NCBI RefSeq assembly: GCF_000682735.1
Contig: NZ_AWFD01000033.1
Span: 124,001 to 188,000, forward strand
Direction of reading: 5' to 3'
DNA from: Hyphomonas sp. CY54-11-8
Lineage (GTDB): Bacteria > Pseudomonadota > Alphaproteobacteria > Caulobacterales > Hyphomonadaceae
DNA: 64,000 nt
Below are positions 1,182 through 29,577 of the stretch, in pieces. Within the stretch, counting starts at the first letter, position 1. The number at the start of each line of letters is the position of its first letter. Below the pieces are notes generated by a model that was given only the letters and a program-made list of their open reading frames with translations, did not search any database and was not told the DNA's origin. The position numbers were made by a program, and so were the translations under genes.

Positions 1182-1604
1182 CTATTGAGCCTCGTCACCG
1201 GCCTCCTGATCCTCAGTCTTCGGACAGTGATCGGCGGGATCATGTCCCTTTGCTTCATGCTTGGCATCGCAATCACCGGCGCCCATCTGGTCCATCTTCA
1301 TGCCATCCTGGCCCATCATCATGCCATCGCCGTCCATTTTCATGCCGTCATGGTCCATCATCATGCCGTCGCCCATTTTCATGCCGTCATGATCCATCAT
1401 GTTGCCGCCCTGCGTCATCATCTGGCCCTCCATGCCGGCCTTGCAATCAGGCATGCCTTCTTTGCCCGCCATGCAGGAAGTTCCGCCAGCAGCGCCGGAT
1501 TCGGCGGCGGGCTTGTCGCCATGATCGTGGGAATCGTGACCGCCCTGAGCCAGTGCCACGGGCGATAGGGCGAGCATTGCAGCCGCTATCCAGACAGGTT
1601 TCAT
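1182..1604 (-). CDS. Secreted Met/His/Asp-rich metal-binding protein
   Basis: A 140-residue protein with a clear signal peptide (MKPVWIAAAMLALSPVALAQ). The mature part opens with an HDSHDHGD cluster and continues with a low-complexity block in which DGMKM occurs three times and DGMMM twice, interspersed with MDHD units and several Cys. Methionine-rich repeats of this kind bind Cu(I)/Ag(I) in periplasmic copper proteins; no enzymatic domain is visible. ATG 1604 has AAGGAG just upstream. The promoter (1661-1688) carries the same TGAGGGG-N15-CGTAAT motif as the cus operon, so a periplasmic metal sponge or chaperone made with the Cus pump is likely. The function is inferred from composition and context. 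Confidence 0.8.
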   Translation of the reverse strand: MKPVWIAAAMLALSPVALAQGGHDSHDHGDKPAAESGAAGGTSCMAGKEGMPDCKAGMEGQMMTQGGNMMDHDGMKMGDGMMMDHDGMKMDGDGMMMGQDGMKMDQMGAGDCDAKHEAKGHDPADHCPKTEDQEAGDEAQ

Positions 1605-1660: not shown

Positions 1661-1688
1661 ATTACGTCGCATGTGCGTGCGCCCCTCA
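1661..1688 (-). promoter_or_regulatory. Putative ECF-sigma promoter of the Met-rich gene
   Basis: Reading leftwards, TGAGGGG (1688-1682) is followed after exactly 15 bases by CGTAAT (1666-1661), 57 bases before the ATG. The same pair with the same spacing occurs at 4024-4051, 4751-4778 and 11192-11219. Confidence 0.7.
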
Positions 1689-1741
1689 GGCAGACAGCTT
1701 TGCGCACTGCAAATATGTTTCCTGACCGACCAAGGGGTTCC

Positions 1742-2644
1742 ATGACCGGCCCGCACGCGCTTGCCATCCTCGTTATGCTCCTCTGGGCCGGTTGCTATCC
1801 GTTTATCGCAATGGGCCTGCCTGATGCGCCGCATCTGACCTTCGCCGCCTTGCGCGCCCTGCTTGCAGGGGGCGGCCTTCTTACGATTGCCGGTGCACGG
1901 AAATGCCGCCTTCCTTCCAGCGCGGCGGAATGGGGGTGGATCTGCCTGACGGGGCTCAGCATGACCAGTCTTGGCTATTTCGGCATGTTCCACGCCTCCG
2001 AATTCGTGTCTCCGGGGCTGGCCACCATGATCGAAAGCCTGCAGCCCATGATGACGGCTATACTCGCCTTCCTGTTTCTCGGGGAGCGCCCCCGCCTCGT
2101 GAACTGGACGGGCCTCGTTCTGGGGGCTGTCGGCGTTTCCCTGGTCGCTGCCCCGAAAATCCTTGCTGCAGGGGGTGACCAGGCCCTGAACGGCATGGGC
2201 TTCGTCATGATTGCCACAGGCGGTGTGGCGGCAGGCAATATCGCGATCAAGAATGTGTCCGCCAGCGTCGATGCATCCATGGCCATGGGATTGCAGCTCG
2301 TGATTGGCGCCGTGCCTCTGGCCCTGCTTGCAGCATTCGGCCCGGACCCGCTCGCCATCACCTGGTCCGCACGCTTTGCGCTCTCCCTGACAGTCCTGGC
2401 ACTTCCCGGTACCGCACTGGCCTACTGGCTCTGGCACAAGGTCCTGCAATCGCTGGACGTCTCAGAAGCGGCCAGTTTCAGCTTCCTGGTACCGCTGATC
2501 GGCGTCAGCGCCGGCGCAGCCTTCTTCGGGGAAACCATCGGAGGAAATGTCGCGCTTGGTGCGATGCTGGCCGCGCTTGGACTATATCTCGCGTCCAGCC
2601 GGAATCCCCGGACGTCACCCTTACCTGGGCGGCGCGATCACTGA
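1742..2644 (+). CDS. DMT-superfamily (EamA) membrane transporter
   Basis: A 300-residue, very hydrophobic protein with about ten membrane segments in two EamA repeats. The family signature LGERPRLVNWTGLVLGAVGVSLV closes the first repeat and FFGETIGGNVALGAMLAALGLYL the second. Such proteins move small metabolites across the inner membrane; the substrate is unknown. ATG 1742 is chosen over in-frame starts at 1673 and 1715 because AAGGGG precedes it and it begins at the first membrane segment. It is transcribed divergently from the Met-rich gene, and its last 7 bases overlap the end of the sigma-factor gene on the other strand. Confidence 0.88.
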   Translation: MTGPHALAILVMLLWAGCYPFIAMGLPDAPHLTFAALRALLAGGGLLTIAGARKCRLPSSAAEWGWICLTGLSMTSLGYFGMFHASEFVSPGLATMIESLQPMMTAILAFLFLGERPRLVNWTGLVLGAVGVSLVAAPKILAAGGDQALNGMGFVMIATGGVAAGNIAIKNVSASVDASMAMGLQLVIGAVPLALLAAFGPDPLAITWSARFALSLTVLALPGTALAYWLWHKVLQSLDVSEAASFSFLVPLIGVSAGAAFFGETIGGNVALGAMLAALGLYLASSRNPRTSPLPGRRDH

Positions 2645-3210
2645 TCGGCGGACTCGACCTGCGCCTGGAGGATTTTTCTTGCCCGGTAGACGCGCGTCTC
2701 GACGGTTTTGACCGATACGCCGAGAATATCTGCGACCTCGATCTGCGGCAGGTCCTGCAGGACCTGCAGCGTGAACGCCACCCTCAGCTTCTCCGGCAAT
2801 TCGTCGATCATGGCGGACACGCGTCTCAGCTCATCGTGAATTTCAAAACCGCCCGGGATGTCCGCCCCGTGGTCCGCGATATCCGGACGGTCCGGAACGT
2901 CGAGCGGCGCGGCCTGGAAGAAGAAACTCCTTACCGCACGTTTCCTTCCGTGATCGCGCACCTTGTTGAGGGCGATATGATAGATCCATGTCGAAAACTT
3001 GCGTGACGGATCATAGCGGTCGATTGACCGCCAGGCGGCCGTGAATGCGTCCTGGAGCACGTCATACGCGTCCTCATCCCCGCGCATGGACCGGTGAATG
3101 TAGCGATAGAGCGGCTCCTTGTAGCGGCGCATAAGCTCGGTGAAGGCGCGCTCCTCGCCTCCCGCCGCCGCAACGGCAAGTTCCGCGTCTGTTCGCTCAT
3201 TATGGGCCAC
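2638..3210 (-). CDS. cnrH: ECF RNA polymerase sigma factor, CnrH-like
   Basis: A 190-residue ECF sigma factor. Region 2 spans about residues 25-90 (RRYKEPLYRYIHR, then DAYDVLQDAFTAAWRSIDRY and FSTWIYHIALNKVRDH). Region 4 spans about 130-185, with the helix-turn-helix LPQIEVADILGVSVKTVETR. It is the last gene of a three-gene unit (anti-sigma, metal sensor, sigma) in the order of cnrYXH of Cupriavidus. The start is GTG 3210, 10 bases after the sensor stop; no strong ribosome site decides it. When released from its membrane anti-sigma it should direct polymerase to the TGAGGGG-N15-CGTA promoters seen here, including the one in front of its own unit. Confidence 0.9.
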   Translation of the reverse strand: MAHNERTDAELAVAAAGGEERAFTELMRRYKEPLYRYIHRSMRGDEDAYDVLQDAFTAAWRSIDRYDPSRKFSTWIYHIALNKVRDHGRKRAVRSFFFQAAPLDVPDRPDIADHGADIPGGFEIHDELRRVSAMIDELPEKLRVAFTLQVLQDLPQIEVADILGVSVKTVETRVYRARKILQAQVESADQ

Positions 3211-3220
3211 GCGACTATGT

Positions 3221-3655
3221 CTATTGCTCCTTCAGTGCCCGAACGATTTCCTTGTCGAACGCCTTAGCCTGCTCCTCATCCAGTATCTCGCGCATCTCGA
3301 ACACATGCTCGATGGTGAGCTTCTGCAGCTCCCCCATGGCCTCGTGAAAATCATCAATCGCCGCCTGGACAGCGGGGGAATTCGCCTTGTCGGTCTCGAT
3401 CGCGTCGGCGAGCGCGAGATTGGCCGCTCGCAACCTTGTTTCAAGCGCCTTCTTGCGCGCCGCGAACTTGCGTTCAACGACTTCAAGGCGCTGCTCCTGT
3501 GCGTCGGAGAGCTCAAGGTCCTTGTGGATCAGGTCATGTAGCCCCGAAGCCCGCTGGACCTCCGGCGCCGGGGACCAGTTTCCGGCAAGAAAAACGCCGG
3601 TCATGCCTGCGCACAGCGCAACAAAGGCAACGATGATCCAGTGTTCAAGCCGCAT
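3221..3655 (-). CDS. cnrX: Periplasmic heavy-metal sensor, CnrX-like
   Basis: A 144-residue protein with one N-terminal membrane anchor (about residues 6-25) and an alpha-helical periplasmic domain. The metal ligands of Cupriavidus CnrX (His42, His46, Glu63, His119, Met123) are matched with a constant offset of two: His40 and His44 in HDLIH, Glu61, and His117 and Met121 in HVFEM. This makes it a true CnrX-type sensor rather than a general Spy/CpxP protein. On metal binding it is expected to relieve the anti-sigma factor. AGGAAAG precedes ATG 3655. Cnr responds to Co/Ni, but the pump nearby is of Cu/Ag type, so the metal sensed is uncertain. Confidence 0.9.
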   Translation of the reverse strand: MRLEHWIIVAFVALCAGMTGVFLAGNWSPAPEVQRASGLHDLIHKDLELSDAQEQRLEVVERKFAARKKALETRLRAANLALADAIETDKANSPAVQAAIDDFHEAMGELQKLTIEHVFEMREILDEEQAKAFDKEIVRALKEQ

Positions 3656-3663
3656 AAGCTTTC

Positions 3664-3975
3664 CTAGCGCAATAATCCGGAAGGTCCGTACGACGCCTCA
3701 ACCGAAAACACCGAAAGCTCGTTCGGTCCGGAAGTTCTGGGAACAGAGATGACCCCGACGAAGAGACCGACCGCAAGCGCAACGGCAATGCTGCGGGAGA
3801 GCACAGGCATGGCGGAAACCTGGCCATTGGTTGCAACGCCGAAAAGGCCTCCCCTTTGTGTTCCCGTGGCCCGTGCATCGACCCGGGCCCAGACTTCGGG
3901 CTCGATATGGCTGAGGTCGCGATCGGCCGGCAGGGCCTTGATCCCCGCGATGAGGGCGTCGAGATCCTTGTTCAT
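3664..3975 (-). CDS. cnrY: Membrane anti-sigma factor, CnrY-like
   Basis: A 103-residue protein with a short cytoplasmic N-terminal part (MNKDLDALIAGIKALPADRD), one membrane segment at about residues 58-80, and a short periplasmic tail. Size, topology and position, directly before the CnrX-like sensor and the ECF sigma, match CnrY, whose N-terminal helix sequesters the sigma at the membrane. Similarity to CnrY by eye is weak, so the call rests on context. AGGAGAG lies just before ATG 3975. The ECF-type motif at 4024-4051 lies 49 bases upstream, which would make the unit self-activating. Confidence 0.72.
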   Translation of the reverse strand: MNKDLDALIAGIKALPADRDLSHIEPEVWARVDARATGTQRGGLFGVATNGQVSAMPVLSRSIAVALAVGLFVGVISVPRTSGPNELSVFSVEASYGPSGLLR

Positions 3976-4023
3976 GGCGCTCTCCTTTCAGATAGCAAGA
4001 TTAGGGAGGATTACGTATTGCCC

Positions 4024-4051
4024 TGTACGCGGCAGTTTCAACACCCCCTCA
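4024..4051 (-). promoter_or_regulatory. Putative ECF-sigma promoter of the cnrYXH-like unit
   Basis: Reading leftwards, TGAGGGG (4051-4045), 15 bases, then CGTACA (4029-4024), 49 bases before the anti-sigma ATG. The start-to-start spacing of 22 is the same as in the other three sites. It suggests autoregulation. Confidence 0.65.
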
Positions 4052-4175
4052 TGAATCTACTGCTAATAATTGGTATGCATCGACAAGCGTCCTTGCAATC
4101 AGCTGACTGCACGGGCTGTACCGAACCGCCAGATTGCCTGTTTGCAGGAATTTCGTCGCTTGGCGAGAGGGAGAC

Positions 4176-4652
4176 ATGACGCAAATGAGGAAAAAAATCA
4201 CAGAACTCGACCCGGCCCGCAGGCCACTGCGATTTGCCCTCTCCTATGTCCTCGTCCTGACTGTCGTCAATCTCGTCTGGGAAATCGCGCAATTGCCGCT
4301 TTATACAATCTGGACCGAAGCCTCGTTGGCCGAAAAGACTTTCGCGATCCTTCATTGCACGATCGGGGACGGGCTGATCGGATCAGCAACGCTTGCCCTG
4401 GCTCGGCTTGCCTTCGGCGGGCGGCACTGGCCCGCGGAGTACTACTGGCGCGTTGCGCTAGCAGCGACGCTTCTGGGGATTGCCTATCTCATTTTCAGTG
4501 AGTGGCTGAATGTCAGCCTGCGCGGCAGCTGGGCCTATCGGGACTCTATGCCGACGGTCGGTCCCCTGGCCACAGGCCTTGCCCCGATCCTGCAATGGGT
4601 CATCCTGCCACCATTGGTTTTCCTGCTGACGCGCAAGGCGCGGCTTTTCTGA
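4176..4652 (+). CDS. Uncharacterised four-helix membrane protein
   Basis: A 158-residue protein with four hydrophobic segments (about residues 20-40, 55-75, 92-110 and 130-150) and a conserved-looking motif WEIAQLPLYTIW after the first. I do not recognise a functional family. ATG 4176 is preceded by GAGAGGGAG, better than the earlier in-frame ATG at 4134. It stands between the divergent cnr-like unit and the phosphoketolase cassette. The cassette has its own promoter motif in the 179-base gap, so this gene is probably transcribed separately. Confidence 0.65.
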   Translation: MTQMRKKITELDPARRPLRFALSYVLVLTVVNLVWEIAQLPLYTIWTEASLAEKTFAILHCTIGDGLIGSATLALARLAFGGRHWPAEYYWRVALAATLLGIAYLIFSEWLNVSLRGSWAYRDSMPTVGPLATGLAPILQWVILPPLVFLLTRKARLF

Positions 4653-4750
4653 ACGACTGACGGTCTGCACAAGCGGCTGTTGCCTGGGAATTGCCCTGTT
4701 TTGGTCCGGTACGGGCGGGATCTGGTCCGGAAACCTTTTGCTACCCGGCA

Positions 4751-4778
4751 TGAGGGGAAGAGGGAGGCACGGCGTATG
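4751..4778 (+). promoter_or_regulatory. Putative ECF-sigma promoter of the phosphoketolase cassette
   Basis: TGAGGGG (4751-4757), 15 bases, then CGTATG (4773-4778), 53 bases before the phosphoketolase ATG. Element spacing is identical to the sites before the anti-sigma, Met-rich and cus genes; the last two bases of the -10-like element differ. Confidence 0.6.
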
Positions 4779-4831
4779 TGTGATTGTTGGCGGCGCATGA
4801 GGCGCACAAGGCAATTGGAACCCGGTAAATC

Positions 4832-7219
4832 ATGACAGCACATTGGCAGGACGGATATGGCGTGATCGTCCACACGGAAGAAACCCGTCTGCGCCTTGAA
4901 GACATTCTGCATTCGGCCCGGCGCGGCGAGCTGGCCCTGACCGAGCCGCAGGCAGAAAGCGTGCTGGCAGCAACTGACCGCCTGGCAAATGCGGCGATGT
5001 GGCTCGTCGCGCACATGACTTACGCCTGCCGGGTCGATCTGTCCGGAACCCCTCTTTCTGCCGAGGACTTCAAGCCGTCTCCCGAAGGCCACACCGGCGG
5101 CTCCCTGAACATGGCGATCGCCTTTGCGGGCTACCTTGCAGCCAACGCCCTGAGCGGACACACACGTGCCTGGACACTTGGCCAGGGCCATTGCGTGGCC
5201 GCGATCGAAGCGGTCAACACACTCACGGGCGATGTATCCGCTTCGCAGCGCGGCCGGTATGACCGCAGCGAAGCCGGACTGACCCGGCTCGTCCGCGATT
5301 TTTACAGCTATGCCATGACGTCCGATGGAAAGCCGGCCGTTCCCCTTGGAAGCCACGTTAATCCAAATACGGCCGGCGGCCTCTCGGAAGGCGGGTACCT
5401 CGGCTTTGCAAGCCTGCAATATATCCATATGCCGTTGCCTGGGGAACGCCTGGTGGCCTTTCTGAGCGATGGCGCGTTCGAGGAGCAGCGCGGATCCGAC
5501 TGGGCACCGAGATGGTGGCGCGCCTCCGACAGCGGCTTTGCCGTTCCGGCGATGGTCCTCAATGGGAGGCGGATCGAACAACGAACGGAAATCTCCCAGG
5601 AAGGCGGTCTCGACTGGCTGGTTCGCCACCTTGAACTGGGCGGGTTTGACCCGATCATCCTGGATGGTCACGATCCCCTGTCCTATGCCTGGGGCATCCT
5701 TGAAGCCGAAAAGCGGCTGGTCGGACTCTCAGAGGCTGACGGCCCCTATCCGGCAAGGCTCCCCTATCTCATTGCGCCGTGCTTAAAGGGCTACGGTTTC
5801 CCGGGCGCTGGGACCAACCGGGCCCATAACCTCCCTCTCGCCGGCAACCCCCATACCGACCCCGCAGCGCGAGCGGCCTTCAATGAAGGGGCAAGGGCAC
5901 TCTTCACACCACATGACGTTCTGGATAACGCAATCCGTTCACTGAGCACCCACAAGGCGCAAGGGCGAGTGCTGGAAAGCCGGAACGCCTGCGCCGTTCG
6001 GAATGTACCGGGCCCGCACCTTCCTCCACACGCGGCGGCAGGGTCTGGAAGCGAGCCCCCGGCCTGCGCCATGGACGGCATCGACCGGTGTTTCGCCGGC
6101 ATTGCGGGCGCCAATCCGCACCTGCGCATCCGGGTTGCGAACCCCGACGAGCTTCGCTCGAATCACATGCCGCTCACGCTGGAACTGCTGAAGCACCGGG
6201 TCAACGTCCCCGAACCCGGCACGCCGGAAGACATCAATGGCTCGATCATTACCGCGTTGAACGAAGAAGCCGTCATCTCGGCTGTGCTCGGCAACAAGGC
6301 CGGACTGAACCTGGCGGTCAGTTATGAAGCCTTCGCCATGAAAATGCTGGGCGCCCTGCGGCAGGAAATCATCTTTGCGCGCCGCCAGAAGGAACTCGGC
6401 CAGCCCCCCGGCTGGATCAGTGTCCCCCTGATCGCGACATCCCACACCTGGGAGAACGCCAAGAACGAGCAATCTCATCAGGATCCGACCCTGCCCGAAG
6501 CCCTGCTCGGCGAGATGTCCGATACGGCGCGTGTCATCTTTCCGGTCGACGCAAACAGCGCCGCGGAAGCCCTCCACAGTGTCTATCGCGGACGTGGCGA
6601 AATCGCCTGTCTTGTTATTCCCAAACGACAGGTCGGCGAGCTCCTAACCCAGGAAGAGGCCGCCGATGCGCTCAGGACCGGCGCCATCCGGATTGCCGGA
6701 GACCTCGAATCCGCACGCGTCCAGTTCGTCGCCATCGGAGCCTACCAGGCGGTCGAGGCGCTTGCGGCCCATGACCGGCTGGCCGGGCGCGGCGTGGCCT
6801 CCTGCGTCACCCTGGTTCTTGAACCCGGTCGGTTCCGTTCCGGCCGGGACCCGATCGAAACGGCCAGCACCGCACCGGATCATATTGTCCGCGCGCTTTT
6901 TCCGGCCGGCCTGCCCCGCATACTCCTGACCCATACCCGGCCGGAACCCATGACCGGCCTGCTCAGACGTATCGACGAAGGCCCCGGCCGGCTGCGGGCG
7001 CTCGGATATCTCTCACGAGGTGGTACACTGGATGTACCAGGAATGCTGTTTGCCAATCGCTGTACCTGGGCCCACGCGGTTGACGCGGCCATGACGATCG
7101 CCGGTCTCCGGCAGGCCGGCCTGCTCACGGAAGATGAGCGCCGCGCCATTGAAGGTACCGGCGACCCGTCCGTGCTGAAACAGGTTTTACCCATCCACCG
7201 AACGGAGACCGTGCAATGA
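4832..7219 (+). CDS. Phosphoketolase-family enzyme (divergent)
   Basis: A 795-residue thiamine-diphosphate enzyme of XFP architecture and normal length. The N-terminal domain has EGHTGGSLNM (about residue 87), GQGHCVAAIEA and SHVNPNTAGGLSEGGYLG; the C-terminal part includes TSHTWENAKNEQSHQDP (about 529-545). Phosphoketolases split xylulose-5-phosphate (or fructose-6-phosphate) with phosphate into acetyl phosphate and a triose (or erythrose) phosphate. The cofactor loop reads SDGAFEEQRGSDWAP instead of the canonical GDGEAETG, marking a divergent subfamily that is sometimes annotated as xylulose-5-phosphate 3-epimerase, so the exact reaction is not certain. It is the first gene of a four-gene cassette and its stop overlaps the next start (ATGA). 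Confidence 0.88.
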   Translation: MTAHWQDGYGVIVHTEETRLRLEDILHSARRGELALTEPQAESVLAATDRLANAAMWLVAHMTYACRVDLSGTPLSAEDFKPSPEGHTGGSLNMAIAFAGYLAANALSGHTRAWTLGQGHCVAAIEAVNTLTGDVSASQRGRYDRSEAGLTRLVRDFYSYAMTSDGKPAVPLGSHVNPNTAGGLSEGGYLGFASLQYIHMPLPGERLVAFLSDGAFEEQRGSDWAPRWWRASDSGFAVPAMVLNGRRIEQRTEISQEGGLDWLVRHLELGGFDPIILDGHDPLSYAWGILEAEKRLVGLSEADGPYPARLPYLIAPCLKGYGFPGAGTNRAHNLPLAGNPHTDPAARAAFNEGARALFTPHDVLDNAIRSLSTHKAQGRVLESRNACAVRNVPGPHLPPHAAAGSGSEPPACAMDGIDRCFAGIAGANPHLRIRVANPDELRSNHMPLTLELLKHRVNVPEPGTPEDINGSIITALNEEAVISAVLGNKAGLNLAVSYEAFAMKMLGALRQEIIFARRQKELGQPPGWISVPLIATSHTWENAKNEQSHQDPTLPEALLGEMSDTARVIFPVDANSAAEALHSVYRGRGEIACLVIPKRQVGELLTQEEAADALRTGAIRIAGDLESARVQFVAIGAYQAVEALAAHDRLAGRGVASCVTLVLEPGRFRSGRDPIETASTAPDHIVRALFPAGLPRILLTHTRPEPMTGLLRRIDEGPGRLRALGYLSRGGTLDVPGMLFANRCTWAHAVDAAMTIAGLRQAGLLTEDERRAIEGTGDPSVLKQVLPIHRTETVQ

Positions 7220-8589
7220 CTCTGACCCTGACGAGCCTTGGGGGAGCGGGAACCGTTACAGGTTCGCGCCACCTTCTCGAACATGACGGACAGCGCCTGC
7301 TGATCGATTGCGGCCTGTTCCAGGGATTCAAGGGCTTGCGGGAGCGCAACTGGGCGCCCTTCCCCGTCGACCCATCCTCGATCAACGCCATTGTCCTGAC
7401 GCACGCCCATATCGACCATAGCGGCTATCTGCCAAAACTGGTCAGGGAAGGCTATCGTGGCCCGATCTACTGTTCCGGGGCGACGAAGGACCTTTGCGAA
7501 ATTCTTCTGCGCGACAGCGCATACATATCCGAGCGGGACGCCGAGCGCGCAAACCGCTATCGCTACACTAAGCATGAGCCGGCAAAGCCGCTCTACACGG
7601 TAGCGGATGCCGAAGCCGCAATCGCGCAATTGGTGCCGGTTGCGTTCCATACAGATATCGCGCTCGACATCGGAGCCCGCGTCTACCTGCGGCGCGCAGG
7701 CCATATTCTCGGCGCCTCCACGCTCGAAGTGCATTGGGGCGGGAAGACGATTGTCTTTTCCGGGGACCTCGGACGATATGATGACCCGTTCATGTTCGAT
7801 CCCGAACCCGTCCGCAAGGCCGACTATGTCGTTATCGAGTCCACCTATGGGGACCGGACCCACCCGAAGACCGACCCCATGGAGCAGCTTGGCGAGGTCA
7901 TCGGCCGTACCGTCGGCCGCGGCGGGACGGTCGTCATTCCGGCTTTTGCCGTCGGACGCGCTCAGCTGCTTCTCTATCATATCTGGATGCTGAAGAAGGC
8001 AGGACGCTTTGCAAACGTCGCGATCTATCTCGACAGCCCAATGGCCATCAACGCGACCGAGCTTCTTTGCGCCCACCTCGATGATCACAGATTTACACCC
8101 GATGTGTGCATGGAGACCTGCAACATTGCCAGTTATGCTCGTGACGTCGAAGCCTCCAAGGCCATCACAAGCGACCGCATGCCAAAGGTGGTGATCGCAG
8201 CCAGCGGCATGATGACCGGCGGCCGGGTCCTGCATCATGTCGAAGCCTTTGGCGGGGACCGGAAGAACACGATCCTGTTCGCGGGCTACCAGGCGGCCGG
8301 GACGCGCGGCGCAAAGATCCTCGAAGGTGCCAGGTCAGTTCGCATGTTCGGCAAGGAAGTTGAAATCAGAGCGGAAATCGCCAGCCTCCCCGCCTTGTCA
8401 GCCCATGCCGATGCCGATGAACTGATGAAATGGCTGGATGGCTTTGCGGCCCCGCCAGCCAGGACATTTATCGTTCACGGGGAACCGGAAGCCTCCAGCC
8501 ATTTCCATGACAGGATACAGGAGGACCTGGGCTGGCCCAGCGATGTTGTCCGCATAGATCATACCTACGATCTCGCAGGAGGCGCTTGA
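7216..8589 (+). CDS. MBL-fold beta-CASP ribonuclease (RNA-specificity type)
   Basis: A 457-residue metallo-beta-lactamase fold protein with the beta-CASP insertion. Visible metal motifs are THAHIDHSGYLPKL (motif 2), GHILGAS (motif 3), FSGDLGR (motif 4), SAHADADEL and a late VHGEPEA. ESTYGDR is the beta-CASP hallmark. The family includes CPSF73-like RNA endo- and exonucleases. Two zinc ions and a cytoplasmic location are expected. The start overlaps the phosphoketolase stop by four bases, so the two are translated together. Within the cassette it could supply nucleotides from RNA to the phosphorylase encoded next; this is inference. Confidence 0.88.
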   Translation: MTLTLTSLGGAGTVTGSRHLLEHDGQRLLIDCGLFQGFKGLRERNWAPFPVDPSSINAIVLTHAHIDHSGYLPKLVREGYRGPIYCSGATKDLCEILLRDSAYISERDAERANRYRYTKHEPAKPLYTVADAEAAIAQLVPVAFHTDIALDIGARVYLRRAGHILGASTLEVHWGGKTIVFSGDLGRYDDPFMFDPEPVRKADYVVIESTYGDRTHPKTDPMEQLGEVIGRTVGRGGTVVIPAFAVGRAQLLLYHIWMLKKAGRFANVAIYLDSPMAINATELLCAHLDDHRFTPDVCMETCNIASYARDVEASKAITSDRMPKVVIAASGMMTGGRVLHHVEAFGGDRKNTILFAGYQAAGTRGAKILEGARSVRMFGKEVEIRAEIASLPALSAHADADELMKWLDGFAAPPARTFIVHGEPEASSHFHDRIQEDLGWPSDVVRIDHTYDLAGGA

Positions 8590-10118
8590 TCGTGCCCGGC
8601 GATCATGATCCCGGCGGCCAACCCCTGAAGGCCCGGCGCCTGAAATGGCATACCCAGGACGATGCCATCATCCTCATGCGCACCGACTGTCCGGTCTGCC
8701 GCGCCGAGGGCCTGACATCACGCTCTAGGATCCTTGTCACCTGTGGCACAAGATCGGTGATCGCCACGCTGCACCAGATCGAGGACGACTGGCTACCCAT
8801 TTCTGAGGCGGGGCTTTCGGAAGCCGCCTGGAAGCGGCTCGGCGCTGTCCCGGGTGCAGACCTCGGCATTGCCCACGCACCGACGCTCCCATCCCTGTCC
8901 GATGTCCGCCAGCGGATGACCGGAAGACGGCTTGGCGCGGACGCTTTCGACAGGATCATCTCGGATATCGCATCGGGGAAATATTCCGATGTGCACCTCG
9001 CCGCTTTCATATCCGCCTGCTCCACCCTGAAGCTCGATCTCGGGGAAATGAAAGCCCTGACACATGCCATGGTCGGGGCGGGCGAACGGCTGAGCTGGGA
9101 TGCGAACCTGGTAATCGACAAGCATTGCATCGGAGGCCTGCCCGGCAATCGGACGACGCCGATCGTTGTGGCGATCCTTGCCAGTCAGGGCCTGACAATA
9201 CCGAAGACCTCTTCGAGAGCCATCACGTCTCCAGCCGGAACCGCCGACACAATGGAAACTCTCACTCGCGTCGATCTGTCGATGTCCGAGATCCGCCGGG
9301 TTGTCGAAGAAGAGGGTGGATGCCTTGCCTGGGGCGGCGCCGTCCAGCTGAGCCCCGCCGACGACGTGCTTATCCGGATCGAGAGAGCTCTCGATATCGA
9401 TGCCGAAGGCCAGCTGATCGCGTCCGTCCTGTCGAAGAAGATCGCTGCGGGCGCAACCCATGTCGTACTCGACCTGCCGGTTGGGCCGACCGCCAAATTG
9501 AGAAGCCGGCCGGATGCTGAAGCATTGATCGAACACATGACGGCGGTCGCCGGGGGGTTCGGCCTGCAGACCCGGTTTGTATTGAGCGACGGCAACCAGC
9601 CCGTCGGCCGCGGGATCGGTCCGGCCTTGGAAGCATGGGATGTCCTGCACGTCCTTCAGCGGCAACCGGCGGCGCCTCTCGACCTGCGGGCGCGCGCGAT
9701 TACCCTTGCCGGAGCAGCGCTTGAACTTGCAGGCCGCGTGGCGGAAGGCCAGGGCGGAGACGTAGCCCGCGAGGCGCTTGATGACGGATCGGCCTGGTCG
9801 AAATTCCAGGCCATATGCGAAGCGCAGGGCGGGCTTCGGGTCCCCCCTGTCGCGGACCACTCAGCCCCTCTCCTCCCCCGCCTTGCTGGCAGGCTGACGC
9901 GCATCGACAACCGCAAGCTTGCAAGACTCGCAAAACTTGCTGGCGCTCCGGAACGTCCGGCCGCCGGCATCCTCCTGCACAAGCGTCTTGGAGACTGGCT
10001 GGCCCCGGATGAAGCCATCGCCTCCATCCATGCCGAGGCGCCGGGCGAGCTTGCCTATGCCAGGGATTATGCCCTCAGCCACACCGACATCTTTACCATC
10101 GAAAGCTCTCCTGAATGA
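8586..10118 (+). CDS. Thymidine/AMP phosphorylase-family protein
   Basis: A 510-residue pyrimidine-phosphorylase fold protein of the long type related to archaeal AMP phosphorylase rather than to the ~440-residue DeoA. The core reads DKHCIGGLPGNRTTP, then IPKTSSRAITSPAGTADTME, the phosphate- and base-binding segments of that group. An extra N-terminal domain (about residues 1-85) is present, as in the archaeal enzymes. Those enzymes convert AMP (also CMP, UMP) and phosphate into ribose-1,5-bisphosphate and base. The start is TTG 8586, overlapping the previous stop; GTG 8592 is an alternative. Substrate preference, nucleoside or nucleotide, cannot be settled by eye. Confidence 0.85.
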   Translation: MIVPGDHDPGGQPLKARRLKWHTQDDAIILMRTDCPVCRAEGLTSRSRILVTCGTRSVIATLHQIEDDWLPISEAGLSEAAWKRLGAVPGADLGIAHAPTLPSLSDVRQRMTGRRLGADAFDRIISDIASGKYSDVHLAAFISACSTLKLDLGEMKALTHAMVGAGERLSWDANLVIDKHCIGGLPGNRTTPIVVAILASQGLTIPKTSSRAITSPAGTADTMETLTRVDLSMSEIRRVVEEEGGCLAWGGAVQLSPADDVLIRIERALDIDAEGQLIASVLSKKIAAGATHVVLDLPVGPTAKLRSRPDAEALIEHMTAVAGGFGLQTRFVLSDGNQPVGRGIGPALEAWDVLHVLQRQPAAPLDLRARAITLAGAALELAGRVAEGQGGDVAREALDDGSAWSKFQAICEAQGGLRVPPVADHSAPLLPRLAGRLTRIDNRKLARLAKLAGAPERPAAGILLHKRLGDWLAPDEAIASIHAEAPGELAYARDYALSHTDIFTIESSPE

Positions 10119-11011
10119 CGCTCTATATTCCTCTTCCTGGCAACACCGCCATGGCCAGCGAGCTCGCCCGGCTGACGGGGGGTGAACTGGGCACCCTTGC
10201 GGTCCGCCGGTTTCCCGATGAAGAAACCTATGTCCGCATTGAAACCGATGTCAGAGGAAAGCATGTCGATCTGGTCTGCACGCTTGCGCGCCCCGACCCT
10301 CAGTTGACTGGGCTCCTCTTTGCCGCCGCGACGGCCCGCGAGCTCGGCGCAGAATCCGTCGGACTGATTGCCCCCTATCTCGCTTACATGCGCCAGGACC
10401 GGCGATTTTCCGAAGGAGAGTCCGTGTCAGCACGGCATTTTGCCCGGATGCTGTCGAGCGTTTTCGACCGGCTGGTCACCGTGGATCCGCATTTGCACCG
10501 GATACATGATCTGGGAGAAATCTTCCCGATCGCCACACGGGTTGTCCATGCAGCACCTGCCCTTGCCGACTGGATCTGGCAGAATGTTGAAAACCCCCTC
10601 GTGATCGGACCCGATTCCGAAAGCGAGCAATGGGTATCCGATGTGGCCTCCCGGGCGGGCGCGCCTTACCTGGTCCTTTCCAAGACACGCAACGGAGACC
10701 GCGATGTCGAAATCGCGGCGCCTGGCCTCGCCGATTGGGCCGGACGGCAACCAGTCCTGATCGATGACATCGTCTCTTCCGGACGGACGATGATCGAGGC
10801 CGCACGGCATTTCCAGTCGGCCGGATTTCCGAAACCCGTCTGCGTCGTGGTGCATGCTATCTTTGCCGATCAATCTTATGCAACCCTTCAAACCGTCGCA
10901 TCGCGGATCGTTTCCACCAATAGTGTCCGTCATCCGTCCGCCGAAATCTCCATCGCCCCCCTCCTGGTCGAGGCAAGGAGGGAAACCAGAGGTGCCTTCG
11001 GGTCACACTGA
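10115..11011 (+). CDS. prs: Ribose-phosphate diphosphokinase (PRPP synthetase)
   Basis: A 298-residue protein with the PRPP synthetase fold: RRFPDEETYVRI near residue 31, YLAYMRQDRRFSEGESVS (the ATP/flexible region, about 88-105), VDPHLHRIHDLGEIF, and the PRPP-binding loop VLIDDIVSSGRTM at about 210-222. It is shorter than the housekeeping enzyme (about 310-320 residues), so this is probably a specialised paralogue. It overlaps the preceding phosphorylase by ATGA and closes the cassette. In that setting it could work in either direction, making PRPP or converting PRPP to ribose-5-phosphate. Confidence 0.88.
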   Translation: MTLYIPLPGNTAMASELARLTGGELGTLAVRRFPDEETYVRIETDVRGKHVDLVCTLARPDPQLTGLLFAAATARELGAESVGLIAPYLAYMRQDRRFSEGESVSARHFARMLSSVFDRLVTVDPHLHRIHDLGEIFPIATRVVHAAPALADWIWQNVENPLVIGPDSESEQWVSDVASRAGAPYLVLSKTRNGDRDVEIAAPGLADWAGRQPVLIDDIVSSGRTMIEAARHFQSAGFPKPVCVVVHAIFADQSYATLQTVASRIVSTNSVRHPSAEISIAPLLVEARRETRGAFGSH

Positions 11012-11191
11012 TGATTGGAGGAAATTCCTGGCGCTTCGCCAAAGAAGCGAAGCCCTGTTCTTGCAGAGGCGCCGGTCCCGGCGGAGGCAGGCCGCCCGCT
11101 CGGACGGCAAGGTGTGTCGCGCCGGCGATCCGTGCTGGTCACACCCCAGAGGCCGGACTTTTTTCAGATCATAGGCTCCTCGCGCTTTGTT

Positions 11192-11219
11192 TGAGGGGGC
11201 AAGCCGGCAGGTGCGTAAT
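11192..11219 (+). promoter_or_regulatory. Putative ECF-sigma promoter of the cus operon
   Basis: TGAGGGG (11192-11198), 15 bases, then CGTAAT (11214-11219). It is 39 bases before the small leader reading frame at 11259 and about 200 bases before cusC. Motif and spacing are the same as at the three sites upstream. Confidence 0.7.
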
Positions 11220-11258
11220 GGAGGCAGATGACAACAACCTGTATCGAGGGGGTGAACC

Positions 11259-11390
11259 ATGACCTGCGCCAAATACCGATCCATGGTCCCTACAACAGTG
11301 CCCCTGATCGGACTGCCCGCAATTGCCCAGGCAACACAGGAACACCCCCGCCCGATCCGCAGACAGCCGTGCCTCCGAAATCGGCTGTAG
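11259..11390 (+). CDS. Small leader reading frame before cusC
   Basis: A 43-codon frame with a good ribosome site (GAGGGGGTGAACC before the ATG). It encodes a short polar start, a hydrophobic stretch (VPLIGLPAIAQA) and a basic, proline-rich end. It lies between the ECF-type promoter and cusC, ending 30 bases before the cusC start. It may be a leader peptide or a remnant of a signal sequence. No homologue is recognised and codon evidence is thin. Confidence 0.35.
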   Translation: MTCAKYRSMVPTTVPLIGLPAIAQATQEHPRPIRRQPCLRNRL

Positions 11391-11420: not shown

Positions 11421-12668
11421 GTGAATTACAGACACCTGCTTGCGACGCTCCTTCTATGCGGTGCGTTTGGCTTGCCAATGGGTGGCCTTGCGCTTGCGCA
11501 AGCGCCCCTGACCCTGCCGGAAGCTGTCGATATAGCGCTCGGCGCTGATGATCCGAGCGTCGCAAGGCTGGAACAGGAAGCGCTTGCCTTTGACGACAAG
11601 GCGGTCGCCGAGAGCCAGTTGCCCGATCCGGTTGTCAGCGCCCAGATCGCCAATGTCCCGTTTCCCAGCCTCGACTATGACCGGGAACCGATGACGCAGC
11701 TGAAATTCGGCGTGCGCCAGGCGCTTCCAAAAGGTGAGACGCTTGCCCTCACGCGTGAAAAACAGACGGCTCAGGCACAAAGCGCACGGTTTCACAAATC
11801 CCTGCAGGAACAGCAAATTGCTCTTGAAGCGCGCCAGACTTGGCTTGAGCTCTCTTACTGGCGAGATGCCCGCAGACTCACGCTTGAAAGCCAGCGCAAG
11901 GTCAGTGAACTTGGCGGCGTTGCCCAGGCCGACTATGCCAGCGGGCGGTCTTCCCTGCAGAATGTCCTTCGCATTGATCTGGAAACCTCTTCGCTGGACG
12001 CGCGGCTTGTCGACATCCAGCGCAATGAGGACCGGGCCAGGGCAGACCTGATCCGGCTGATCGGCCCCCTGGAAGGGGCGAGGCCGCTTGCATCAGGCGC
12101 CCCCATTCTCCCCCCGGTCACCGGTGAAGATCTCATTCGGGAACGCCTTGCCAGCCATCCCTCGCTCCGGGCTCTTGACGCCAGCGTCACATCGAAGAGC
12201 CGGGACGTCGACATTGCTGCGGAACAATACAAGCCGGGTATCAGTTTCGATGCCCAATACGGCATCCGGGACTCGCGGTCGGACTTCGGATCCGTCGGGG
12301 TCGCCGTCTCGCTCCCCCTCTTTTCGAAAAAGAACAAGGATTATGCCCTGCGCGCGACAAAGCGGCTGCGCGAAGCGGAGAGACTGGCGCGGGACACACA
12401 GGCCCTGGAACTCGAACGTGCGCTGCGCCGGGACTGGGCGCAATATACGCGCCTGGGCGAACAGATAGAGGTCTATGAAACCGATGTCCTCGATCGTGCC
12501 CGGGACACCCGCGAAGCAGCCATGGCCGCCTACGGCAACAATCTTGCCGATTTTGCCGAACTCGTCCGCGCAGAACTCGCCGTTCTGGATACGGAACTGA
12601 CTCTCAGCCGCCTGAGAGTCGACCGGCTGCAGGCGCAGGCCAACCTTTTGTTCCTGAGTGGAGACTAG
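11421..12668 (+). CDS. cusC: Outer-membrane efflux protein CusC/CzcC-like (TolC family)
   Basis: A 415-residue outer-membrane factor with a signal peptide ending LALAQA (about residue 28) and two coiled, Ala/Leu/Arg-rich repeats typical of the TolC helical barrel (for example LARDTQALELERALRRDWAQY). It forms the outer-membrane duct of a tripartite RND pump. The start is GTG 11421. The cusB ATG follows one base after its stop, showing tight coupling. Clear Cus- or Czc-specific residues are not known for this subunit, so the copper/silver assignment comes from the partners. Confidence 0.88.
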   Translation: MNYRHLLATLLLCGAFGLPMGGLALAQAPLTLPEAVDIALGADDPSVARLEQEALAFDDKAVAESQLPDPVVSAQIANVPFPSLDYDREPMTQLKFGVRQALPKGETLALTREKQTAQAQSARFHKSLQEQQIALEARQTWLELSYWRDARRLTLESQRKVSELGGVAQADYASGRSSLQNVLRIDLETSSLDARLVDIQRNEDRARADLIRLIGPLEGARPLASGAPILPPVTGEDLIRERLASHPSLRALDASVTSKSRDVDIAAEQYKPGISFDAQYGIRDSRSDFGSVGVAVSLPLFSKKNKDYALRATKRLREAERLARDTQALELERALRRDWAQYTRLGEQIEVYETDVLDRARDTREAAMAAYGNNLADFAELVRAELAVLDTELTLSRLRVDRLQAQANLLFLSGD

Positions 12669-12669
12669 C

Positions 12670-14238
12670 ATGCGCACCACAAAGCTTATCCTGCTCGCGA
12701 CCGCATTCGGTCTCGGGCTTGGCGCCGGGGCCGTGGTCATGAGCCTGGCCAGCGGCAGCGCCGGTCAGGCATCCGGGAAGCAGCCTTCAGCAGAAAGGAA
12801 GCCCCTCTACTGGGCCGCACCAATGGACAAGAGTTACCGCAGCGACTCTCCCGGCCTGTCGCCCATGGGGATGGAGCTTATTCCGGTTTATGCCGATGAC
12901 GAGAGTGAGGGCGACGATCGCAACCTCGTCAGGATCAATCCGGCAGTCGAGAACAATATCGGGGTCAGGACAGCGATTGTCGCCACCAGCGAAGCGCTTC
13001 CCGCCGTCGAAACCGTCGGTACGGTCCAGATCGATGACGACAATACTTCCGTTGTGGACGTCCGGACTGAAGGCTGGATCGAAAACATGCCCGTCAAGGC
13101 GATCGGCGATGAGGTCAGAAAGGGACAATTGCTGTTCCAGATCTATTCGCGCCCCCTCGTCAGTGCGCAGGACGAGTATCTGCAGGCGACGCGCATGGGC
13201 AACCAGAACCTGATCACGGCCACAAAATCACGGCTGGTTTCCCTCGGCATGAGTAACCGCGCCATCGAGAGCCTGAAGGAGAGCGGCCAGTCCGAGCGCC
13301 TGCTGAATGTCTATTCTCCGAGAAGCGGCATCGTCACGCAGATGGGCGCTGGCGAAGGCGGGTTCGTCAAACCCGGCATGAACGTGCTCAAGATCGCCGA
13401 CCTCAGAACGGTCTGGGCAATTGCCGATGTCTATGAAGACCAGGTCCACCAGGTCCGTCCCGGTCAGGAAGTCACCATGCGGATGAGTGGGATGCCCGGC
13501 CGCGAATGGAAAGGCCTCGTTGAATATATTTACCCGACCGTCAACGCCCGGGCGCGGACCGTTCAGGTCCGGATCAGCTTTGACAACAAGGACGGGCTGC
13601 TGAGACCGGACATGTTTGTGCGTCTCAGGATCGAAACCAGCTCCGACGTTCCGTCCGCAGACGCATCGGACAAGGTCGTCATTCCGCGCGAAGCGCTCAT
13701 CCGGACCGGACGCACCGAACGCGTCATCCTGGCGCTGGGAGATGGCAGGTACCAACCGGCCCAGGTGGTGTCCGGCCGTGAAATCGGGGACGATATCGAA
13801 ATCTTGTCCGGTCTGGCCGCCGGGGAAAGAATTGTCGTCTCATCGCAATTCCTGCTCGACTCCGAAGCAAGCCTGCGCGGAACCATGCTGAGGCTGACGG
13901 CCGGCCAGAACGAAGGTGCGTCCATGGATATGGGTTCGTCATCCGAAATGCGGCAGGAAGGCGCGCCAGAAACACAGCCCGCCGATACGGCGCAGACTCG
14001 CGGCATGGTCGTATCTGTCATGCAGGCGCATGGCATGGTGACCATCGAGCACGCCCCGGTCGAAGCCCTCGGCTGGCCATCCATGACCATGGCGTTTGTG
14101 ACGGATCCGGCTCTGCTGAAAGACATCGGCAAGGGAGACAATGTCGACATTACAGTCAGGGCCGCGCCGGACGACAATGGAAATTACGTCCTCTCGGACA
14201 TCCGCAAGATCTCGCCGGCCCGGGTGGACGCACAATGA
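12670..14238 (+). CDS. cusB: RND periplasmic adaptor CusB-like, with N-terminal metal-binding and C-terminal CusF domains
   Basis: A 522-residue membrane-fusion protein. After the signal/anchor (about residues 1-30) comes a heavy-metal-binding segment with YWAAPMDKSYRSDSPGLSPMGMELIP (only its key residues are Met, Asp and Pro). HlyD-type barrel-sandwich and beta-barrel domains follow (about 75-400). A C-terminal CusF-like domain (about 440-522) carries WPSMTMAF, the Trp-Met-Met copper/silver site of CusF. Fusing the CusF chaperone to CusB would pass Cu(I)/Ag(I) straight to the pump. ATG 12670 follows the cusC stop. The gene overlaps cusA by ATGA. Confidence 0.9.
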   Translation: MRTTKLILLATAFGLGLGAGAVVMSLASGSAGQASGKQPSAERKPLYWAAPMDKSYRSDSPGLSPMGMELIPVYADDESEGDDRNLVRINPAVENNIGVRTAIVATSEALPAVETVGTVQIDDDNTSVVDVRTEGWIENMPVKAIGDEVRKGQLLFQIYSRPLVSAQDEYLQATRMGNQNLITATKSRLVSLGMSNRAIESLKESGQSERLLNVYSPRSGIVTQMGAGEGGFVKPGMNVLKIADLRTVWAIADVYEDQVHQVRPGQEVTMRMSGMPGREWKGLVEYIYPTVNARARTVQVRISFDNKDGLLRPDMFVRLRIETSSDVPSADASDKVVIPREALIRTGRTERVILALGDGRYQPAQVVSGREIGDDIEILSGLAAGERIVVSSQFLLDSEASLRGTMLRLTAGQNEGASMDMGSSSEMRQEGAPETQPADTAQTRGMVVSVMQAHGMVTIEHAPVEALGWPSMTMAFVTDPALLKDIGKGDNVDITVRAAPDDNGNYVLSDIRKISPARVDAQ

Positions 14239-17200
14239 TTGCAAGTCTTGTCCGCTGGTCCATCGGGAACCGGGTCCTGATCCTCCTGCTCGCCGCACTC
14301 CTGGCCGTCTGGGGCGGCTACACCCTTAAAAAGACGCCCCTGGACGCCATTCCGGACCTCTCCGATGTTCAGGTCATCATCAAGACCACCTATCCGGGCC
14401 AGGCGCCCCAGGTCGTGGAAGACCAGGTGACCTATCCGCTGACGACGGCCATGCTGGCCGTGCCCGGCGCGGTCACGGTCCGCGGGTACTCGTTCTTCAA
14501 TGACAGTTTCGTCTATGTCATCTTCGAGGACGGAACCGATCTCTACTGGGCCCGCTCGCGGGTTCTTGAATACCTCTCCCAGGTCGCACCGACATTGCCA
14601 GCGGCCTCCCGCTCCGCGCTGGGTCCGGACGCAACCGGGGTCGGCTGGGTCTATCAGTATGCCCTGGTCGACCGGACCGGCCGGCACGACCTCTCCCAGC
14701 TCCGCTCCATACAGGACTGGTTCCTGAAATACGAATTGCAGACGATCGACGGGGTATCCGAAGTCGCAACGATCGGGGGCATGGTCAAACAATACCAAGT
14801 CGTCGTTGACCCGGAAAAACTCCGCACGTACGGCATTCCGCTGGACAAGGTCCGTTCCGAGATCGTACGCGGCAACCAAGAAACGGGTGGCCGCGTCATC
14901 GAAATGGCCGAAGCCGAGTACATGGTTCGCGCGTCCGGCTACATCAAGGGCATCAAGGACCTCGAATCCATTCCTCTGGCGGTGACCGACAAGGGCACGC
15001 CGATCCTTCTGCGGGATGTTGCCCAGATCCGCCTCGGCCCGGAACTCAGGCGCGGGATCGGCGAACTCAATGGTGAGGGCGAAGCGGTCGGCGGCGTGAT
15101 AATCATGCGCTACGGCGAAAACGCCATGCGCACGATCGACCTCGTGAAAAAGAAACTGGAAACCCTGAAGGAGAGCCTGCCTGAAGGTGTCGAGATCGTG
15201 ACAACCTATGACCGGTCTTCCCTGATCGAGCGGGCCGTCGACACATTGAAGGAAAAGCTCGTCGAGGAATTTATCGTCGTGCTCCTGGTCTGCGCCCTGT
15301 TCCTGTTCCACGTTCGCAGCGCGGTTGTCATCCTGCTCAGCCTGCCGCTCGGAATACTGGCGGCGTTCATCGTGATGAACGCTCAGGGCATTAATGCCAA
15401 CATCATGTCGCTCGGAGGGATCGCCATCGCCATCGGCGCCATGGTCGACGCCGCGATCGTCATGATCGAGAACATGCACAAGCACATTGAGCGAACGCCT
15501 CTGACGAATGAAAACCGCTGGGCGGTCGTGACCCAGGCGGCAATCGAGGTCGGCCCTGCGCTTTTCTTCTCCCTGCTGATCATTACATTCAGCTTTCTCC
15601 CGATCTTTGCACTGGAGGCCCAGGAAGGACGGCTATTCCATCCCCTGGCTTTCACAAAGACCTATGCGATGGCCGGCGCGGCGATCCTGTCCGTTACGCT
15701 TGTGCCGGTACTCATGGGGTACTTCATCCGGGGCCGGGTTCTGCCCGAACACAAGAACCCGGTGAACCGTCTGTTGATGGGGATCTACCAGCCCTTCATC
15801 AACATGGTTCTCAGAGCGCCGGTTCTGATGATCGTGATCGCATTCGCGGTAATGGCCAGCGCGATCATCCCCCTCAGCCGGATGGGGTCGGAGTTCATGC
15901 CGGATCTCGACGAAGGCGATCTGCTCTATATGCCGAGCGCATTCCCGGCGGTCTCGGCCGGGAAAATGTCCCAGATATTACAGCAAACCGACAAGCTGAT
16001 CATGACTGTTCCGGAAGTCGAGACAGTCTACGCCAAGGCGGGACGGGCAGAGACGGCGACCGACCCTGCACCGCTCACCATGGTCGAGACCACGATCCGC
16101 CTGAAGCCAAAGGAAGACTGGCGTCCCGGCATGACAACCGCCAAGCTGAAAAAGGAGCTGGATTCGATCGTCCAGGTTCCCAGTCTCACCAATGTCTGGA
16201 TCATGCCGATCAAGAACCGGATCGACATGCTTGCCACCGGCATCAAGACCCCGATCGGGATCAAGGTTGCCGGTCCTGATCTCCAGGTCATCGGCGATGT
16301 CGCCCAGCAGATTGAAACGGTGATCAAGGACGTTCCCGGAACATCTTCGGTTTATGCCGAACGGGTGACCGGCGGACGCTTCGTGGATGTTGATATCGAG
16401 CGTGAGGAAGCGGCCCGGTTCGGGCTGAATGTGGCAGATGTGCAGGACCTGGTGAAGACCGCCATCGGCGGCATGACCGTCACCCAGTCCGTCGAGGGAC
16501 TGGAGCGCTATCCTGTGAATGTGCGCTATCCCCGGGAATATCGTGACTCTCTGGAACGGCTGGAAAACCTCCCGGTCGTGACGAAGACCGGAGCACAGAT
16601 CCCCCTCTCGCGCCTTGCCGACATTTCCATTTCCGGCGGGCCGGGCGTCATCAGGAGCGAGAATGCCCGCCTGAACGGATGGATCTATGTGGACATATCC
16701 GATGTCGACATCGGAACCTATGTCAGGAATGCCAAGAAGGCGGTCGAACAAATCGACCTGCCCGCAGGTTATTCCCTGTCCTGGTCGGGCCAGTATGAAT
16801 ACATGCAGCGCGCCAAGCAGCGCCTCAGCCTCGTCGTTCCGCTGACCCTGGTCATTATCCTTCTGCTGCTCTTCCTCAATTTCAGGCGGCTTGTGCCAGT
16901 CTTCATCATCATGGGGACCCTGCCCCTGGCGCTCGTCGGCGGGCTCTGGTTCCTGGACATGCTGGGTTACAACATGTCGGTTGCAGTCGGTGTCGGATTC
17001 ATTGCGCTCGCCGGGGTATCCGTCGAGATCGGCGTTCTGATGATGGTGTATCTGGAGCATGCTCTGGAGGCCAGAATCGAGCAGGCGCGGGCCGAAAAGC
17101 GCGATCTGACCAGGTCTGACCTTCGCGCGGCGGTCATTGAGGGAGCATTGCTTCGCGTCCGCCCCATCATGATGACGGTCGCGGTCGTGATTGCCGGCCT

Positions 17201-17378
17201 CCTCCCGATCATGCTGGGTTCCGGAACCGGCTCTGAAGTCATGCGCCGCATTGCCGCCCCGATGGTCGGCGGAATGACCAGCGCAACCGTACTGACATTG
17301 CTCGTCATCCCCGCCGCATTCCTGATCTGGCAGACACTTGCCCTTAAACTCCCGAAAGAGACATTGGGGACAGAATGA
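14235..17378 (+). CDS. cusA: Heavy-metal efflux RND transporter CusA-like (Cu+/Ag+)
   Basis: A 1047-residue inner-membrane proton-driven pump of full length with twelve membrane helices and two large periplasmic loops. The intramembrane proton-relay Asp is present in GAMVDAAIVMIENMHKH. The segments holding the three copper-binding methionines of E. coli CusA are conserved: GDLLYMPS, APLTMVETTI and RIDMLATGIK. This favours monovalent copper/silver over the divalent CzcA/CnrA group. It is the last gene of cusCBA, coupled to cusB by a four-base overlap. Expression probably depends on the ECF-type promoter at 11192. Confidence 0.93.
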   Translation: MIASLVRWSIGNRVLILLLAALLAVWGGYTLKKTPLDAIPDLSDVQVIIKTTYPGQAPQVVEDQVTYPLTTAMLAVPGAVTVRGYSFFNDSFVYVIFEDGTDLYWARSRVLEYLSQVAPTLPAASRSALGPDATGVGWVYQYALVDRTGRHDLSQLRSIQDWFLKYELQTIDGVSEVATIGGMVKQYQVVVDPEKLRTYGIPLDKVRSEIVRGNQETGGRVIEMAEAEYMVRASGYIKGIKDLESIPLAVTDKGTPILLRDVAQIRLGPELRRGIGELNGEGEAVGGVIIMRYGENAMRTIDLVKKKLETLKESLPEGVEIVTTYDRSSLIERAVDTLKEKLVEEFIVVLLVCALFLFHVRSAVVILLSLPLGILAAFIVMNAQGINANIMSLGGIAIAIGAMVDAAIVMIENMHKHIERTPLTNENRWAVVTQAAIEVGPALFFSLLIITFSFLPIFALEAQEGRLFHPLAFTKTYAMAGAAILSVTLVPVLMGYFIRGRVLPEHKNPVNRLLMGIYQPFINMVLRAPVLMIVIAFAVMASAIIPLSRMGSEFMPDLDEGDLLYMPSAFPAVSAGKMSQILQQTDKLIMTVPEVETVYAKAGRAETATDPAPLTMVETTIRLKPKEDWRPGMTTAKLKKELDSIVQVPSLTNVWIMPIKNRIDMLATGIKTPIGIKVAGPDLQVIGDVAQQIETVIKDVPGTSSVYAERVTGGRFVDVDIEREEAARFGLNVADVQDLVKTAIGGMTVTQSVEGLERYPVNVRYPREYRDSLERLENLPVVTKTGAQIPLSRLADISISGGPGVIRSENARLNGWIYVDISDVDIGTYVRNAKKAVEQIDLPAGYSLSWSGQYEYMQRAKQRLSLVVPLTLVIILLLLFLNFRRLVPVFIIMGTLPLALVGGLWFLDMLGYNMSVAVGVGFIALAGVSVEIGVLMMVYLEHALEARIEQARAEKRDLTRSDLRAAVIEGALLRVRPIMMTVAVVIAGLLPIMLGSGTGSEVMRRIAAPMVGGMTSATVLTLLVIPAAFLIWQTLALKLPKETLGTE

Positions 17379-29543: not shown

Positions 29544-29577
29544 GATTTCCTGTTGCCTGAGGGTACGGTCTGCTGCA

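Follow-up and report, generated by a model that had tools for sequence, protein, structure and literature searches.

What reads a promoter-like motif that recurs at fixed spacing in the marine bacterium Hyphomonas sp. CY54-11-8, and which genes does it control? In the 64,000-nucleotide stretch analysed here (contig NZ_AWFD01000033.1, positions 124,001 to 188,000; hereafter the window), the sites are most probably promoters of a CnrH-type ECF sigma factor that would command a copper/silver island together with metabolic operons, a reading to which we assign a probability of roughly 0.87. The sequence-only reading had proposed four copies of TGAGGGG-N15-CGTA, and a search of the window recovered all of them:

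1661..1688, minus strand: putative promoter of the Met-rich protein gene (TGAGGG-N16-CGTA), predicted start about 1654; relatives retain it at the orthologous gene, where the spacers differ.
4024..4051, minus strand: putative autoregulatory promoter of the cnrYXH-like operon, predicted start about 4017; kept in relatives.
4751..4778, plus strand: putative promoter of the phosphoketolase cassette, predicted start about 4785; kept across families near a CnrH-like sigma.
11192..11219, plus strand: putative promoter upstream of cusC, predicted start about 11226; found in the window sequence and in near relatives.

These four exact matches compare with a mean of 0.01 in 100 dinucleotide shuffles, none of which held four, which excludes chance for the window motif, and the four spacer sequences are mutually unrelated, so the sites are not copies of one duplicated block. 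The claim that the window contains no other such site also stood, even when one mismatch was allowed, except for a chance-level match at 29558. The TGAGGG core of the proposed heptamer was retained, but its seventh G is A, C or T in relatives with a sigma 80-84% identical, and the strict 7-base motif was therefore dropped; judged from these comparisons, the conserved core is TGAGGG-N16-CGTA, with TGAGGG as the conserved putative -35. CGTA lies 58, 50 and 55 bases from the start codons of the Met-rich, CnrY-position and phosphoketolase genes, respectively, and at the fourth site about 41 bases from a leader ORF and 203 from cusC; the 39-57 bases previously given agree with these distances if the motif is counted one or two bases longer.

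The genes behind the first two sites, all on the minus strand, include an operon in the order cnrY-cnrX-cnrH (3975 to 2638):

1182..1604, minus strand: exported Met/His-rich protein, 140 aa, with no Pfam or NCBIfam match; probably binds metal in the periplasm.
2638..3210, minus strand: CnrH-like ECF sigma factor, 190 aa (Pfam Sigma70_r2 and r4_2).
3221..3655, minus strand: CnrX-like periplasmic metal sensor (Metal_resist, PF13801, 1e-17).
3664..3975, minus strand: candidate membrane anti-sigma in the CnrY position, 103 aa, recognised by position, size and one hydrophobic span seen by eye.

Among solved structures, the sigma is closest to CnrH (4cxf, 6e-27; 35% identity, regions 2 and 4 only) and the sensor to CnrX and NccX. 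Residues aligned with the CnrX metal ligands H42, H46, E63, H119 and M123 are all present in the window sensor and vary in relatives. Between this operon and the phosphoketolase cassette, positions 4134-4652 (orf172) encode a membrane protein without a family match, which is preceded by the motif in relatives and not in the window.

The CnrYXH/cnrCBA system of C. metallidurans pMOL28 carries promoters of the same form, with CAAGGG-N17-CGTATAAG upstream of cnrY and CGAGGG-N17-CGTATAGA upstream of cnrC, and CGTA ending 32 and 33 bases before the respective ATG. Transcription of these genes starts 24 and 25 bases before ATG (PMC9045368), that of cnrY at position 53286 (PMC11647585), and therefore begins 8 bases after CGTA at both. 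Of all the evidence, this agreement in promoter form and start geometry speaks most strongly for the window motif being a CnrH-type promoter. The two systems also share the Y-X-H order, a CnrH-family sigma, a sensor with the same five ligands, and promoters at both cnrY and the RND operon. They differ in that the C. metallidurans system has two promoters serving one cobalt/nickel efflux system with an N17 spacer, whereas the Hyphomonas system has at least nine promoters covering a copper/silver island and metabolic operons with an N16 spacer, and its CnrY sequence is unrecognisable (no similarity to CnrY was detected by BLASTP). Among other metal-responsive ECF systems, SigAb of Acinetobacter is likewise autoregulated, works with a small CnrY-like anti-sigma and is copper-responsive, but it reads GTCAAC-N17-CGTT, has heavy-metal efflux genes as indirect targets only, and is restricted to Acinetobacter (PMC12153292). 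Similarly, SigF of Caulobacter crescentus is an alphaproteobacterial ECF sigma of heavy-metal stress, but recognises GTAACC-N16-CGAA, is paired with the anti-sigma NrsF, and responds to chromium and cadmium with other targets (PMC3511200).

Genome-wide pattern searches for the core, with the reversed pattern as control, gave 11 occurrences in 3.9 Mb against 1 for the control. The motif is thus not common across the genome, and 9 of the 11 sites lie on one contig within 28 kb (106878-135217, around the cnrYXH-like genes; the window begins at contig position 124001), with a clustering probability near 3e-18 under uniform placement that is indicative only, the span having been set by the hits themselves. 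The two core sites outside this island (C12:179816 and C36:21952) both fall within ORFs and were treated as chance matches. The proposed metal regulon of the local sigma accordingly stands in kind and not in size: instead of four promoters it has nine or more, spread along 28 kb. Five further exact core sites fall shortly to the left of where the window begins, and at these CGTA is 32-202 bases from the start:

Left-hand site, exact core: before a CusF-like lipoprotein gene.
Left-hand site, exact core: before a CopA multicopper oxidase gene with CopB.
Left-hand site, exact core: before an AlbA_2-like membrane protein gene (named by eye).
Left-hand site, exact core: before a CFA synthase-PPK2 operon (genes at L010 6135-8178).
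Left-hand site, exact core: before a His-rich CopB-type P-ATPase gene with a CPH motif.

Sites with one mismatch precede a second ECF sigma gene (TAAGGG) and a DUF2231/DUF4440 protein gene (CGAGGG). The CFA synthase and PPK2 genes behind a full motif suggest that lipid and polyphosphate changes belong to the same response.

The fourth promoter stands before an efflux operon whose upstream region has been rearranged:

11259..11375, plus strand: 5' remnant of a porin-like gene, with a deletion junction near 11370-11375 (blastn against L073 and the ORFs of L073).
11421..17378, plus strand: cusCBA-type RND efflux system (TIGR00914).

In near relatives, the promoter is followed by a 447-aa porin-like gene, two cytochrome-c-like genes and then cusCBA. 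About 2.1 kb of this arrangement is missing from the window, where 11173-11369 aligns with the beginning of the porin gene and the sequence from 11376 onwards with the region just before cusC (blastn against L073). The ORF that had been read as a leader of cusCBA is therefore what a deletion has left of a porin gene and, on this alignment, it is the deletion that placed the fourth promoter 203 bases from cusC. The window CusA keeps the Met triad (E. coli CusA residues M573, M623 and M672); its score is 1366 bits with E. coli CusA and 533 with ZneA.

The content of the island bears on which metal is at issue and on what reads the motif. A CnrH-type cobalt/nickel regulon, as in C. metallidurans, with the copper genes as passengers, would fit the presence of all five CnrX ligands in the window sensor, but these ligands vary in relatives and every assignable transport or binding target is of copper/silver type (CusA with its Met triad, the CPH-type ATPase, CusF, the CopA oxidase and CopB), which leaves this reading improbable and indicates copper/silver rather than cobalt/nickel defence as the output. 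The previously proposed metal-stress regulon is thus upheld as to metal and redirected to copper and silver, either of which would most likely be the inducer. Copper genes are often under regulators such as CopR or CueR, and the sites could in principle be repressor or activator binding sites of that kind rather than ECF promoters; however, the fixed 16-base spacing, single orientation towards the gene, short distance to starts, lack of a palindrome and identity of form with the mapped CnrH promoters make this very improbable. A different candidate reader is the second ECF sigma, encoded 3 kb left of the window (L010 8365-8949) in the same island beside the P-ATPase, in which case the CnrH-like sigma would be merely one target. 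Its gene has a near-motif, TAAGGG-N16-CGTA, 44 bases before the likely start, and its Cys-rich C-terminus (CHTCLEHGYFQCAC) contains a CHTC...CAC arrangement resembling a metal-binding tail. It is absent, however, from eight genomes that carry the motif or a variant (G005, G031, G022, G034, G061, G249, G057 and G297) and is therefore not needed for the motif, and characterised CnrH promoters have the same form; the second sigma was rejected as the reader, with only a slim chance left to it. More probably it is itself controlled by the first sigma, giving a possible cascade, and is perhaps a self-sensing, CorE-like sigma. CorE senses copper itself, without an anti-sigma. In Myxococcus xanthus CorE is a copper-dependent ECF sigma (PMC3107203), and the second sigma of the island may be nearer to this type.

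Recognition of the motif by the local CnrH-like sigma, as the sequence-only reading had supposed, is supported by the 4cxf match, the Y-X-H order, the C. metallidurans promoter form and the distribution of motif and sigma across families. A motif search in relatives found it before cnrY, the Met-rich gene, the phosphoketolase cassette and the P-ATPase gene where the sigma is 80-84% identical, with spacers that differ from those of the window. Where the sigma is about 42% identical (G022, G034 and G061), the motif is kept before cnrY and, in two of these genomes, also before a divergent TonB receptor gene. In Hyphomonas-genus genomes (loci L084 and L085), the TonB receptor gene that diverges from cnrY and carries its own motif is 54% identical to window 17839-20574. 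Across the genus, genomes with a close sigma orthologue hold 7-15 core sites, and most of those without one hold 0-6, about as many as the reversed control gives or slightly more. G002 and G014 depart from this pattern, some of their sites having spacer sequences identical to G005 promoters, and so does G012, which lacks a close CnrH orthologue and has nine core sites scattered over its genome. In one group the promoter of the sigma operon itself reads CCAGGG or TCAGGG and that of the cassette TCAGGG or CCAGGG, and in all aligned sigmas with [TC]CAGGG promoters a Y replaces the T of the window's region 4 recognition helix (KTVETR), suggesting that this position contacts the second base of the -35.

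The motif also reaches into metabolism at the third site, which precedes a four-gene operon:

4832..7219, plus strand: phosphoketolase-like XFP protein, 795 aa, matching the Pfam XFP domains.
7216..8589, plus strand: beta-CASP metallo-beta-lactamase-fold ribonuclease-like protein (domain match).
8598..10118, plus strand: nucleoside/AMP phosphorylase-like protein (PRK04350 and TIGR02645 above cut-off).
10115..11011, plus strand: ribose-phosphate diphosphokinase (PRK07199 above cut-off).

The first protein falls below the NCBIfam cut-offs of the named subfamilies (Xfp; 115 bits against 962). Among 299 genomes from the order, its gene occurs in 37, and in 22 of these 37 loci a [TC][GCA]AGGG-N16/17-CGTA variant lies 55-92 bases before it. 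Of the 21 loci with a CnrH-like sigma (E below 1e-50) on the same contig and no more than 25 kb away, 19 have the motif, as against 3 of the other 16 (Fisher 2e-5; the loci are related, not independent, which brings the count of separate events closer to five lineages), and in all three motif-bearing loci without a nearby sigma the sigma is on another contig. Two loci (G118 and G007) have the sigma within 25 kb and no motif directly before the phosphoketolase gene, although in G007 a P-ATPase-prs run located upstream of that gene has a motif before it. As the cassette also occurs without sigma or motif, it is not tied to the CnrH-like regulator; FNR/FixK boxes were sought before the phosphoketolase gene in sigma-less loci and no convincing ones were found. 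That the cassette motif arose by chance or hitch-hiked in a recently transferred block might be suggested by three relatives that are 97-99% identical over the block, but loci with cassettes of only 63-78% identity, in several families, keep the motif or a variant with unrelated spacers, and the expected chance occurrence is about 0.003 per upstream region by our own estimate, so that such an origin is highly unlikely. What does count against the CnrH-type reading is the undetectable CnrY similarity of the CnrY-position protein, N16 in place of N17, the occurrence of the cassette without sigma or motif, the loci of G118 and G007, and the scattered sites of G012.

Under the CnrH-type reading, the membrane anti-sigma in the CnrY position would hold the sigma at rest, and metal binding by the periplasmic CnrX-like sensor would release it. 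RNA polymerase with the free sigma would then read TGAGGG (-35) and CGTA (-10), 16 bases apart, and start about 8 bases after CGTA, transcribing the sigma's own operon and the contiguous copper/silver island (the CusF-like protein, CopA/CopB, the CopB-type P-ATPase, CusCBA and the Met-rich protein), as well as the CFA synthase-PPK2 operon and the phosphoketolase, beta-CASP, nucleoside phosphorylase and PRPP synthetase cassette. For Hyphomonas sp. CY54-11-8, this sequence of sigma release, sigma dependence and start sites is a prediction from sequence comparison.

The cassette could turn RNA and nucleotides into pentose phosphates and acetyl phosphate, and during copper stress it may do so from nucleosides. 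In the FixK2 regulon of Bradyrhizobium diazoefficiens, a phosphoketolase and an operon of MBL-fold, PRPP synthetase and thymidine phosphorylase-family genes make up the same enzyme set, by annotation only, but are induced by low oxygen via FixK2 boxes in two operons, in contrast to the single four-gene operon under a metal sigma in the window (PMC9104804, PMC6515984). No report of a phosphoketolase in a copper regulon was found in the literature searched. A wider proposal, which we hold tentatively and at somewhat less than even odds, is that the metal sigma directly commands a metabolic detour built into copper defence, in which RNA and nucleoside breakdown would supply pentose phosphates and the phosphoketolase acetyl phosphate, alongside membrane-lipid (CFA) and polyphosphate (PPK2) changes. 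On this proposal the cassette, its enzyme set being under low-oxygen control elsewhere, would be a movable unit of stress metabolism that different regulators have captured, with the promoter -35 and sigma region 4 co-evolving.

The regulatory switch is of a known type, the CnrYXH kind, while its reach into metabolism appears to be new. These findings would carry CnrH-type regulation beyond a single cobalt/nickel efflux pump, to a copper island of several operons that includes a conserved metabolic arm, and they supply exact promoter sequences and predicted start sites. They also raise the questions of which metal is detected by a sensor that carries all the CnrX ligands when the output is copper/silver defence, and why phosphoketolase and nucleotide salvage would be needed under copper. 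In addition, the natural -35 variants, each found beside its own sigma gene, offer a ready set for the study of sigma-promoter co-evolution.
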